Below, piece by piece: positions 59,641 to 64,000 of a stretch of DNA of 64,000 bases. Position 1 is the first letter of the stretch, and each line of letters begins with the position of its first letter. The notes under the pieces are model-generated. The model was given only the letters and a program-made list of their open reading frames with translations. It did not search any database and was not told where the DNA came from. The translations under genes and the position numbers were made by a program. The stretch is from an uncultured Chthonomonas sp. (lineage in GTDB: Bacteria; Armatimonadota; Chthonomonadetes; Chthonomonadales; Chthonomonadaceae), in assembly GCA_903919615.1 (NCBI GenBank), contig CAIXIX010000086.1, positions 17,980 to 81,979 of the forward strand, given 5' to 3'.

Positions 59641-60147
59641 GTGATCACATACTTCGAACAGCCGTGCTTGTGCGGTTGGGTCTACCCATGCACGCTGGAA
59701 GACCTTTCGAATGCGACGGAGAGCCTCCCGGCGGAGGATATTGATGGTCTTAGAGCCATTGGCCTTGCAACAGCAACACGCAAGGATTGCTCTGCAAACG
59801 CGCGATATATAGTAGATCGAGGCCCGGCAATTCACATCTACGCGTTTCCTTCCAACATGATTTTCAGGCAACCTGCTGGAACGAAGCGACCTCTCCTCGA
59901 TCTCCAATGTTTGGTTGAGCTGCGTTACGGCATGAAGATTATCCAGGATGGCAACCGGTTCGACTGTGTCTGGCGCCCGGAGGACCTTCGAGAATTCGTG
60001 TTACGTCACGTTCTGATGCACGAGATTGGGCATCACGTTTATTACAAGAGTCGCATCCAATCCAGCCTCCGACGGACTCCCGGCACAACCGCTTCCGAGC
60101 AGTTTGCAGAGGCATATGCTCTCCGGAACGGTAGTATCAAGGTGTAA
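59641..60147 (+). CDS. Small HExxH (HEIGHH) metallopeptidase-like protein (ImmA/IrrE-like or related)
   Basis: GTG start; LRHVLMHEIGHHVYYKSRI ... SEQFAEAYA (third-ligand-like Glu). Confidence 0.6.
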   Translation: MITYFEQPCLCGWVYPCTLEDLSNATESLPAEDIDGLRAIGLATATRKDCSANARYIVDRGPAIHIYAFPSNMIFRQPAGTKRPLLDLQCLVELRYGMKIIQDGNRFDCVWRPEDLREFVLRHVLMHEIGHHVYYKSRIQSSLRRTPGTTASEQFAEAYALRNGSIKV

Positions 60148-60257
60148 GCCGAACCACAAGTTAGCAGTGGCATGTCTCTGACAGCAGATGAAGCACTTGA
60201 TGTTGAAGCATGCAGAGTTAGCAACCGTCTTCCGGCTGTTTGAAGGTGAAGGACAAG

Positions 60258-60824
60258 ATGACAACCATTTGTGCGGTAAGAAAGTCAAATCGCGTTGCCA
60301 TATCGTGTGACACCTGTGCGAGTTGTGGTGCCAGTGTCGACAGGGCTGGTTACGTCGTTAACCACAGCAAGATTCTATCCATCGGCGAGTATCATATTGC
60401 GCTCACCGGTCCAACATCTGCAAAACTGGCTGTCTCGACATACTTCGAAGAGAATGGGGCGGTTAGTCTCAAGAGCGTCGAAACCATATTTAAAGTCTGG
60501 CTTGAACTGCACCATTATCTAAAAGAGACCTGTTTTTTGCGCGAGCCTAACGATAAGGATAACTCCTATGAATCGAGCGATTTCGATGCTCTCATCGCGT
60601 CGCCGCACGGCATATTTGGGGTAACCAGTCACCGCGCTGTTCAGGAATACACGAAATTCTATGCCTTTGGCCGTGGAGATGAGTATGCGATGGGCGCCAT
60701 GTTTGCCAGTTACGATGCTGAAGACATGTCGGCTGATGCGATTGCTCGACTCGGCGTAGCCGCTGCCGCTGAATTTACCGGTACAACGGTGCTGCCTGCC
60801 GTGGTAAAGATTATTGAAGTTTAA
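60258..60824 (+). CDS. Orphan HslV/proteasome-beta-like Ntn hydrolase
   Basis: MTTICAVRKSNRVAISCDT (Thr1, Asp17), NHSKI (Lys), DFDALIASPHGIF, FYAFGRGDEYAMGAMFASYDAEDMSADAIARLGVAAAAEF. Confidence 0.78.
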   Translation: MTTICAVRKSNRVAISCDTCASCGASVDRAGYVVNHSKILSIGEYHIALTGPTSAKLAVSTYFEENGAVSLKSVETIFKVWLELHHYLKETCFLREPNDKDNSYESSDFDALIASPHGIFGVTSHRAVQEYTKFYAFGRGDEYAMGAMFASYDAEDMSADAIARLGVAAAAEFTGTTVLPAVVKIIEV

Positions 60825-60929: not shown

Positions 60930-61562
60930 TTACCGCATTAGCCCTGCTATCCGTTCCTGTTGTTCTTCCGATAACTGAGCCATCCAGCTTTCGAAAGACG
61001 ACGCGCCTACCAATCGTGCCGCTTCGCGGAGAGTAACAATTCCCTGCAAATCGAAGGCAAATCGCTGCACTTGTTTGGCGAATTCAAGCGTGTAGATGTT
61101 ACCGCTGATCCGAGCAAGAATATTCAGCCTCTTTTTCGTTTCTCTCAACGCGTAAATCGAATAGGAACTGGTCTCTTGCAGCCTGACATCTTCTACGTAT
61201 TGCGCGTAGTCGTCATAATCGTTCAGACGAAGGAATTCCTGTTGTGTGAGATACGCGAGCATCTCATTTAACCACGGTTGTCGATGCACTCCGCTCCTCC
61301 GCATGGTTACCCGATGGTACATTTCATGACCGAGTAATGTACACAATTGCTCCTGATCGTGGCGTGTCTTATCAATCTCAATCATGTAGCATCTAAGCAG
61401 CGGTGTATGGGAGCAAAGCGACCGGGAGAAATCGCGATGGATCTGGTAGGGTAGATGTGGGTCGCACGGTTCACCGAAATGCTCCACGCAGAAATCATAT
61501 GCACGCGGTGCGATGCTTGCAAGATACATGTTTTCAGCCTTCTTAGCCTCTGTTACTGCCAT
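60930..61562 (-). CDS. Putative gluzincin-type metallopeptidase
   Basis: LCTLLGHEMYHRVTMRR followed by PWLNEMLAYLTQQEF (HExxH plus downstream Glu). Confidence 0.55.
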   Translation of the reverse strand: MAVTEAKKAENMYLASIAPRAYDFCVEHFGEPCDPHLPYQIHRDFSRSLCSHTPLLRCYMIEIDKTRHDQEQLCTLLGHEMYHRVTMRRSGVHRQPWLNEMLAYLTQQEFLRLNDYDDYAQYVEDVRLQETSSYSIYALRETKKRLNILARISGNIYTLEFAKQVQRFAFDLQGIVTLREAARLVGASSFESWMAQLSEEQQERIAGLMR

Positions 61563-62068
61563 TTGTGCACCTCCTTACAAACCTCGACCACGACAATTAT
61601 TTCAAGTCGTAACCCATGCCGGTCAGAATGCCCTCTTGCGTACCCCTTGGATGGATTAAAAAGCAGTCGATAGATCGCCGCACAGGAGTCGATGGCGATA
61701 CCATCAGCCCGTTCGCCGCCCCACACCCTGGGTAATTGTCGGCCCAGCATCGCAGACAGTGCTGGGCCGAGCGCAGGCAGCAAAGCTAGAATCGGTAATC
61801 TCGTTACTGGTGGCAGACCGAATCGCTTCAGGATCATGTTGATCGGATTGCCCGGCGAGATGGTAATCGTTTTACCCGACGAATATTTGATGGGAAAGAC
61901 ATCTTCTTCCGGCGGAAACCCAATTGCCCCGCCGCCAGGCATGGGCGGCTCACTGCCTGGTGGAGGAGCAGGTGCAAAAAGGGCAGGCGGTTTTGTAGGG
62001 ATTGGTATCTTATCTGGCTCCGCCGACAAACCAGAAATGATATTCACTATCCGAAGGACTTTGACCAC
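61553..62068 (-). CDS. Pro/Gly-rich protein, probable RHS-type C-terminal tip, possibly frameshifted from upstream RHS core fragment
   Basis: Coherent frame KVLRIVNIISGLSAEPDKIPIPTKPPALFAPAPPPGSEPP... overlapping the end of the RHS fragment; no recognised domain. Confidence 0.45.
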   Translation of the reverse strand: MVKVLRIVNIISGLSAEPDKIPIPTKPPALFAPAPPPGSEPPMPGGGAIGFPPEEDVFPIKYSSGKTITISPGNPINMILKRFGLPPVTRLPILALLPALGPALSAMLGRQLPRVWGGERADGIAIDSCAAIYRLLFNPSKGYARGHSDRHGLRLEIIVVVEVCKEVHKWQ

Positions 62069-62200
62069 AAGCCAATCGGGATCTCATGCCCACTCGGATC
62101 CACCGCATTAACCGGATCATGATCGCAGTACAGATACGGTTTCTGATCCAGATAGGTGTCTCTCGACGCGAATGTGCCTGTCTCAGGATCGTAGTAACGG
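62047..62200 (-). pseudogene. RHS repeat-associated core fragment, copy B
   Basis: RYYDPETGTFASRDTYLDQKPYLYCDHDPVNAVDPSGHEIPIGLWSKSFG* on minus strand. Confidence 0.85.
62086..62200 (-). repeat. 115-bp RHS-core direct repeat, copy B
   Basis: Aligns without gaps to 63714-63828. Confidence 0.9.
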
Positions 62201-62332
62201 CAGCCACAAACAGGGAATAGGGACCAGGGACGCAGGGATCAGCACCGACACGCCGGGACCAGGAAAAACGGAACAGTGCTTCTTACTCGGTAGCTGGTTC
62301 TTATTCTAAATTAGCCGTTGCCAACCGAAGCT

Positions 62333-62441
62333 GCATTTCTCTCATCCCTATGTCCCTCATCCCTGCCCTTTGCCGAAGGCATCCGCATTTCACTCATCCC
62401 TTGTCCCTGATCCCTCATCCCTGCTTCTTGCCGAAGGCATC
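62333..62441. repeat. Tandem duplication (~52-57 bp) containing TCCCTCATCCCT and TTGCCGAAGGCATC
   Basis: GCATTTCTCTCATCCCT...TTGCCGAAGGCATCC then GCATTTCACTCATCCCT...TTGCCGAAGGCATCG. Confidence 0.85.
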
Positions 62442-62637
62442 GGCGTTGAGCGTGAAAGTAACCGCCTGAGCGCTACTTATCTCGGCTCGCGCTAAGCCGA
62501 CCGTTTCGTATCGCTTCTTCTCCGCTCGATTTACGTTTGGATAGGTCTGTGAGCAATCGTGCTCTCTCCGAGGTCAGTTCTCAGGCGATCGGCGGATCAG
62601 GTTCGCATCGGCACGTGCTCTTGCCACTCACGCCTAG

Positions 62638-63366
62638 CTAGTCTGTTTGCGTGATTCCTGTTTGCGATTTAAGCGGAGCATCGCTGCTTAAGACAACAGG
62701 CGCTCGCAGCAGTTCGGCAGACCTTTGCTGTGACGGTCCAGAGGGCCTGCAAAGCGTCAACTCATCCGCCGCTAAGAGCGTCCTACGCTCAATCTTCTCG
62801 ATGGATTGCGTCGCAAGGGCCACAATATCTGGACGCACTTTTGAATGCAATGCTGCTCTCGACAGCCGTCTAACCTGTGGCAGTACTGCAGGGCTCGCAA
62901 CATTTCCCAGGACAACGAGCGTCGCCCTTAAATATTCGTCGCAACCATTTCGCAGGCTGTCGGCCAATGCAATTATCTGCTCCGACGTCAACTCCGCTTG
63001 CTCCGCCGGAGAGCTTTCCGAAATCCTCGTAGCGAGCGATACCTCAATCCGACGTCTCACGCTGCGCGGACGCCAGCCTTTCGCGGCTAGCAAAGCGCAA
63101 AGCGACGCCAGATCTGCTTGCGCACCGGGACGCGTTAACAAACCCGCTGCTCGTTTTATGCTGGTAACCGACAACATAATTTGTCCAGCCAAACCTGTAT
63201 ACGCGACAACAAGGGCAAACCACCCAGCCTTGTCACTTTCAGGTTTGAACGCGCTTAAAACAATAAAGGGGCCAGCAATCGCCAGCAAAGCGATTGGAAT
63301 ACTGCGCGCAACAAGCTGGGATATCCTAAAGGCCCTCAATGCAGATGCGACTTCTCTGTCATGCAT
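62638..63366 (-). CDS. Membrane protein with two N-terminal TMs and helical-repeat-like cytoplasmic region
   Basis: IPIALLAIAGPFIVLSAF, WFALVVAYTGLAGQIMLSV; repeated helical segments. Confidence 0.6.
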   Translation of the reverse strand: MHDREVASALRAFRISQLVARSIPIALLAIAGPFIVLSAFKPESDKAGWFALVVAYTGLAGQIMLSVTSIKRAAGLLTRPGAQADLASLCALLAAKGWRPRSVRRRIEVSLATRISESSPAEQAELTSEQIIALADSLRNGCDEYLRATLVVLGNVASPAVLPQVRRLSRAALHSKVRPDIVALATQSIEKIERRTLLAADELTLCRPSGPSQQRSAELLRAPVVLSSDAPLKSQTGITQTD

Positions 63367-63452
63367 TAGTACCGTGAACCTCCTTGTACACGCTCACCGC
63401 CCAGAATAGGCGGTGAGCGTGACTGAATCTGGGTAAGCCTGAATGCAAAAGG

Positions 63453-63840
63453 CTACATCTCCTTCAGTTTCTGTGGCATCGCCGCCCAGATATGAGGATA
63501 CATGTCACGGTTTCTCCCAACTTCGTCACCTGGCTCGTGTATGTCCTTTACTGGCTTATCGAGGCGCTGTTCCACCGCTTCAAGTTTGTGCATATATAAT
63601 TCGTACGGTATCGAAATAACTCCGATCGTTATCAGTACCCCCCCAGCTATAGGCATATTATAGTTCACCAAACCACACCCGAGACCAAAGCACGCTAAGT
63701 CTGTGATCATGATATGCCCACTCGGATCCAACGCATTCACCGGATCGTGTTCACAGTACAGATACGGTTTCTGATCCAGATAGGTATCTCGACTCGTGAA
63801 CGTGCCCGTTTGTGGATCGTAGTAACGGACTAGCTGGCCG
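63453..63840 (-). CDS. RHS repeat-associated core (copy A) with hydrophobic C-terminal tip; N-terminal part disrupted or outside window
   Basis: GQLVRYYDPQTGTFTSRDTYLDQKPYLYCEHDPVNALDPSGH then IMITDLACFGLGCGLVNYNMPIAGGVLITIGVISIPYEL... Confidence 0.75.
63714..63828 (-). repeat. 115-bp RHS-core direct repeat, copy A
   Basis: Same length as copy B, no indels, high identity. Confidence 0.9.
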
Positions 63841-64000
63841 ATCCTGAACCAGTTCCCGACAATGGTATCGTACCGCCGCCGGGCAAGTTTGAAACAGCAA
63901 TCTCGCGCTTTTCGTAATCCTTCAAATCTAGCCAGGCAGAATACATCAAGAGAGACGACAGGACAGAAGTTATTAACTTACCTGAGTTGCTAAATAATGG

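Follow-up and report, generated by a model that had tools for sequence, protein, structure and literature searches.

The orphan rhs-CT/rhsI modules of enterobacteria are the closest described counterparts of the locus analyzed here; they have no start signals and retain fragments of the RHS core (Poole 2011, PMC3150448; Koskiniemi 2014, PMC3967940). In Salmonella, tip exchange has been shown across 522 bp of 95% identity (PMC3967940). In orphan CDI modules, homology extends across the immunity gene and reaches precisely to the next module's boundary motif (PMC3150448). Our analysis of a 64-kb stretch of DNA (the whole of which we call the window) suggests that two short core copies on its minus strand very probably belong to the same kind of locus. 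We read them as orphan rhs-CT modules, that is, displaced C-terminal fragments of RHS (YD-repeat) toxin genes, lined up in a row that extends beyond the end of the contig. This supports the original prediction of an orphan RHS array; the use of the cassettes as donors for tip exchange, which was part of the same prediction, is something that we infer.

As in enterobacteria, displaced RHS C-termini with a bit of core and unrelated tips stand in rows, there are no start signals, a small gene follows each tip, homology stops sharply at the core-tip border, and insertion elements lie nearby. The differences are that the core is only 38 codons long here, with mostly 86-92% DNA identity; that the boundary motif is RYYDP..DPSGH rather than DPxGL; that the full-length parents in this order are about 1000 aa long and have signal-peptide-like starts; and that the assembly contains no full-length gene with this core. 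The locus also resembles the VENN-bounded orphan cdiA-CT/cdiI arrays (PMC3150448) in having a shared block that runs to the next boundary motif and then diverges (from contig C49 into C86, the contig of the window, and into C469), although the core is that of RHS and not of CdiA, and the VENN motif is absent. The known picture of RHS locus variation is left unchanged, the unusual details being a dead cassette, a very short core, and a heptad element, while orphan RHS cassette arrays, which have been detailed in enterobacteria, are extended to a lineage that has them across a whole order.

Two copies of a short RHS core in the window

The two 115-bp copies (62086-62200 and 63714-63828, both on the minus strand; cassettes a and b) match over their full length with zero gaps, and both translate to RYYDPxTGTFxSRDTYLDQKPYLYCxHDPVNAxDPSGH, as had been described. 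In a search of the source genome, the second copy matches the first with E ~ 1e-32, far beyond chance. The original prediction had called the core exact in its title, which is wrong because 16 of the 114 codon bases differ (86% identical DNA), giving 9 silent and 4 amino-acid-changing codons. The 38-codon stretch is the second half of the RHS core domain TIGR03696 (Rhs_assc_core). Cassette b scores 39.4 bits and three other close copies score 37.0-38.9 bits, against a curated cutoff of 32.5, in matches that cover the second half of the model alone (positions 33-76 of 76). This scoring took in these four copies and not cassette a, whose core has 85% protein identity to that of cassette b. Among the five close copies of the genome, most codon differences are silent (14 silent and 1 changing between those on C305 and C49), and the stretch has therefore been kept as coding sequence. 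No in-frame ATG, GTG, or TTG was found upstream of either window core, so neither is translatable from a first codon of its own; the copy on C49, unlike the window cores, has an in-frame ATG.

The similarity was rightly described as abrupt, since 20-bp blocks drop to background on either side of the 115-bp match. The further statement that the upstream sequences are unrelated holds between the two window copies, but it masks structure that other copies in the genome share. Upstream of 62200 lie a 240-bp heptad-repeat element (62202..62440, minus strand), found also in C305 and C49 and partly in C262, and a short decayed remnant of an RHS core (62430..62500, minus strand; ..VTFTLNADAFGK..) that aligns with the open RHS core of C305; both are common to other copies. 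Upstream of 63828 is the tail of the preceding gene, a membrane-protein frame from the ORF list, with its 3' end at 63830..64000 (minus strand) and its TAG stop codon (63832-63830) two bases ahead of the core of cassette b. Downstream, the tips of the window copies do differ, and across the five close copies similarity is lost sharply after DPSG(H/N).

Cassette b comprises the core (63714..63827, minus strand) and a tip of 86 aa plus stop (63453..63713, minus strand; the tip ends at 63456 and the stop occupies 63455-63453), in which a hydrophobic middle is followed by a charged tail. The tip is open, and the cassette is a plausible donor. On the same strand it is followed by a 242-aa frame (62638..63366), a candidate immunity gene from its position and architecture, with two N-terminal hydrophobic segments and a remainder that is predicted to be all-helical; no family matches were found for this frame. 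About 140 bases without a clear gene separate it from the decayed core remnant. Cassette a is dead, its core (62086..62199, minus strand) being followed by a pseudogene tip with a stop after 12 residues (62047..62085, minus strand). A 171-aa open frame carries on from cassette a in another reading frame (62068-61553, minus strand), and its end is overlapped by a 210-aa frame with HExxH (60930..61562, minus strand) and a PhageMetallopep match below cutoff. Short genes beside the cassettes at 59641-60147 (plus strand) and 60930-61562 (minus strand) carry HExxH-like motifs (HEIGHH, HEMYH), and their weak metallopeptidase matches are below cutoff. Another frame of 194 aa in the window (60240-60824, plus strand) has a weak, below-cutoff match to a proteasome subunit family. 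Promoter and terminator scans gave no more predictions than in shuffles.

Further copies and contig joins

Copies beyond the window pair do occur, as an array would have it: genome-wide, there are three further close copies, on C49, C469, and C305, and about 17 distant RHS cores. Each of the five close copies has a different tip, and open tips of 86-128 aa are kept in four of them. The cores of C469 and C305 are the same at 112 of 114 bases (98%) amid unrelated flanks, which indicates that the core has been copied recently.

Window base 64000 is the end of contig C86, and contig joins were examined among selected contigs and through searches of contig ends. The final 141 bases of C86 are exactly the end of C49, and the same 141 bases open C469. 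Overlaps involving C305 and C33, other RHS contigs, are also exactly 141, a length that fits the assembler's k-mer size. The original prediction had pointed past base 64000 for a full-length RHS gene, and this exact overlap leads into C49. There, a further member of this cassette family has an open tip of 128 residues and is followed by the beginning of the membrane-protein frame whose end lies in the window. That frame is a candidate immunity gene of the C49 cassette. From the overlaps of C49 with C86 and with C469 it follows that the window pair is part of a row of at least three cassettes, in the order C49 cassette, candidate immunity gene, and then cassette b or the C469 cassette. Cassette b and the C469 cassette have a common upstream gene end and the same core with different tips; C49 being joined to both contigs, one gene end and core leads into two tips. 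The branch at C49 could be due to a strain mixture in a community assembly or to two copies of C49, and the presence of one gene end running into two tips in a single assembly makes within-population tip variation directly testable. Two more contigs, C413 and C98, were considered as leading into C49 and rejected: C49, C413, and C98 have their first 140-141 bases in common and diverge as siblings from a single repeat, and they therefore give no information on copy number. These shared bases adjoin a DDE transposase in C49 and mark an insertion element beside two RHS loci.

The expectation of a full-length RHS gene in the genome was borne out in part. There is one of 2551 aa, but its core differs from the 115-bp core, and the assembly yielded no full-length rhs gene bearing the RYYDPQTGTFTSRDTYLDQKPYLYC core of the cassettes. 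Contig C8 (3-2570, minus strand) carries the N-terminal 856 aa of an RHS gene that has a signal-peptide-like start and runs off the contig; it is possible that this gene is the full-length parent of one cassette family. A separate five-cassette RHS array with another core type (ARYMDPATGRFVSED) is present in the same genome on C587 (651-9779), and every tip in it is open. On C262 (146-222, 895-1042, and 3603-3695, minus strand), two group II introns lie among RHS fragments (Rfam RF00029, RF02012). One of them, with a protein-gene end and domain V, is inside an RHS core, and the other is without a protein gene; at its end, the second intron is adjoined by another heptad fragment.

Cassette arrays in related genomes

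Core matches were obtained in 23 of 61 genomes, our own genome being included in the search, and the relatives with arrays belong to the same order as the source genome. In G018, six cassettes lie within 6.7 kb on its contig C43. G008, an assembly of 20 contigs, has four cassettes on each of its contigs C9 and C1, and the arrays of G023 and G026 have three and five. Homology between neighbouring cassettes in relatives covers about 90-120 bases of core plus 30-390 bases upstream, and it stops just after DPSG(H/R). In G020, also of this order, an RHS gene of 1080 aa, whose start resembles a signal peptide, has two orphans behind it, of which one is intact and the other decayed.

Tips and following genes

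Among 60 relatives, the sole homologue of the cassette b tip is in G008, a genome of the same family (its contig C1:297121-297378; 40% identity, E = 5e-4, shuffle z ~19), where the tip lies directly behind an RHS core in the same 350-aa frame. G008 has a second related tip. Behind each of these two homologues, at a distance of up to about 25 bases, lies a 254-aa gene, and the two genes are homologous to each other. The relatives contain three further pairs of homologous tips whose next genes are likewise homologous. Such joint conservation of tip and next gene is as would be expected of cognate toxin and immunity genes. The 242-aa gene after tip b is similar in size and layout to the 254-aa genes of G008. 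Its homology to them was considered on the basis of a pairwise z of 4.5, but profile searches stayed at shuffle level, and we therefore do not claim it.

No known toxin domain and no Pfam match was found in the four intact tips (cassette b, C49, C469, and C305), and a PDB sequence search with the tips gave no meaningful match, with none to a known pore-forming domain. The structure model of tip b is a helical hairpin of low confidence (pLDDT 55.6), too uncertain for fold comparison, and that of the 242-aa follower is poor (pLDDT 52.7). A membrane-like segment is present in 34 of 61 tips (>=50 aa) and 36 of 53 next genes, versus 16 of 42 long window frames; since these counts come from a simple, crude hydropathy rule, with a few rows that are double matches within one gene and a background that includes chance frames, they do no more than suggest membrane-active tips. 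The tips in this comparison were taken from all RHS subfamilies found by the core model. Our guess is that the array tips, which are short, often Gly-rich, and hydrophobic, may act on membranes, and they are candidates for new membrane-active toxins. Among RHS effectors, pore formers have been described, as in the case of Tse5 (PMC9637101, PMC10684867). The array resembles Tse5 and the CDI ionophore toxins (PMC11630599) in having a hydrophobic, Gly-rich C-terminal tip and a membrane-protein neighbour gene, whereas the tips here have no family or PDB sequence match and are only 86-128 aa long.

A proposed donor role for the cassettes and its alternatives

The reading of the window pair as orphan modules is carried by the identity of the core, its coding constraint, the unrelated tips, the lack of a core start, the array, and a relative's homologous tip behind its core. 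Each module would consist of the last 38 codons of an RHS core, a variable tip, and a small following gene, and the cassettes would serve as silent donors. Through recombination within a common core sequence, an orphan tip and its next gene would become attached to a full-length rhs gene elsewhere, from which the start, the export signal, and the core would come. Immunity to each tip would be conferred by the gene behind it, which may persist for the protection that it gives. As only 115 bp at 86-92% is left in most pairs, such exchange would be rarer than in Salmonella; the sharing of cores amid unrelated flanks is no more than suggestive of it. Several observations weigh against the orphan-module reading, namely the short (115 bp) and mostly 86-92% identical core homology, the broken cassette a, the absence from the assembly of any full-length rhs gene sharing this core, the lack of a known toxin domain in four tips, a gene after tip b that shows no detectable homology to its counterparts behind the related G008 tips, and a C49 branch that could reflect strain mixture.

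Part of this could be explained by plain decay: repeats, introns, and insertion sequences would have disrupted what were once full-length RHS genes, and the cassettes would be their remains, serving neither as donors nor as a store of immunity. Decay would account for the dead cassette a and for the fact that only short core stretches are left, and the heptad element, the transposase by the C49 cassette, and the two group II introns among the C262 RHS fragments are all in keeping with it. We nevertheless consider it unlikely, given that the differences between cores are mainly silent, that four of the five close copies have open tips of 86-128 aa, that cores 98% identical amid unrelated flanks in C469 and C305 require recent copying, and that ordered arrays recur across the order. 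An artefact of assembly, in which RHS repeats were collapsed or joined into chimeric contigs and distinct full-length genes would pass for orphans, is very improbable. The assembly does have 614 contigs, with RHS pieces at contig ends and C49 branching to two contigs at one 141-bp node, but both window cassettes are on a single contig of 82 kb, 172 bp separate the core of cassette b from the contig end, the stop of the preceding gene adjoins this core, and the same arrangement is found in well-assembled relatives (G008, 20 contigs).

The heptad-repeat element

The 240-bp element upstream of cassette a has AGGGA-type heptads on its left and TCCCT-type heptads facing them on its right, with GGG-run heptad units at 62396-62423; hairpin folding of the element gives a z-score of only -1.6. 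In cassette a, C305, and C49, it ends at TGTTTGTGGC, right before the C-R codons of (C)RYYDP, and the C262 element has the same ending before the H-R codons of a different core type. The left borders of the four copies differ, one being common to two copies and two being individual (three in all). In the sister species G001, the core extends upstream as DAFGNAVATTGSTGSSYQFGATSGYRNDGDAGLLKVGC before RYYDP, and in C305 and cassette a the heptad element stands in place of this segment. The element introduces stop codons into the RHS core. The same heptads recur at about a dozen further sites in the genome with no RHS core motifs nearby, and this scatter weakened the idea of the element as an RHS-specific part. 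Heptads are absent from the sister genome and from nearly all relatives, though the relatives have arrays. The simplest reading is that a scattered repeat entered an RHS core once and was then probably spread by cassette copying.

A quadruplex is thought to promote recombination at pilE of Neisseria, and one could ask whether the element is active in a similar way, with its GGG heptads forming a quadruplex by the core and raising recombination. We regard this as highly unlikely. It would fit the ending of the element at one place before (C/H)RYYDP in four cassettes that have two core types and three left borders, and the heptads at 62396-62423 contain GGG runs of the kind that can form quadruplexes in vitro (PMC4692102), which is why a role in recombination retains some slight chance. 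However, the same heptads lie at a dozen genome places without RHS core motifs, they are missing from the sister genome and most relatives that do have arrays, the element puts stop codons into the core, and the shared border is explained by one insertion that spread through cassette copying. There is similarly little to recommend the idea that the lineage placed the element at the core-tip border as a recombination-promoting quadruplex or long hairpin, raising tip exchange, and we give it a very low probability.

GGG-type heptad repeats from Xanthomonas and Nostoc form quadruplexes in vitro (PMC4692102). The heptads of our genome are like these in being 7-base GGG repeats, often of about four units, that are scattered in one genome, and they differ in that the unit is GGGANNN and in that the repeats lie inside RHS cores at some loci. 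Elsewhere in the same genome, long perfect heptad arrays of the GGGGACT type are present at contig ends (C472:21588-21661 and C415:3074-3113), and these are of the same type as the quadruplex repeats of Nostoc (PMC4692102).
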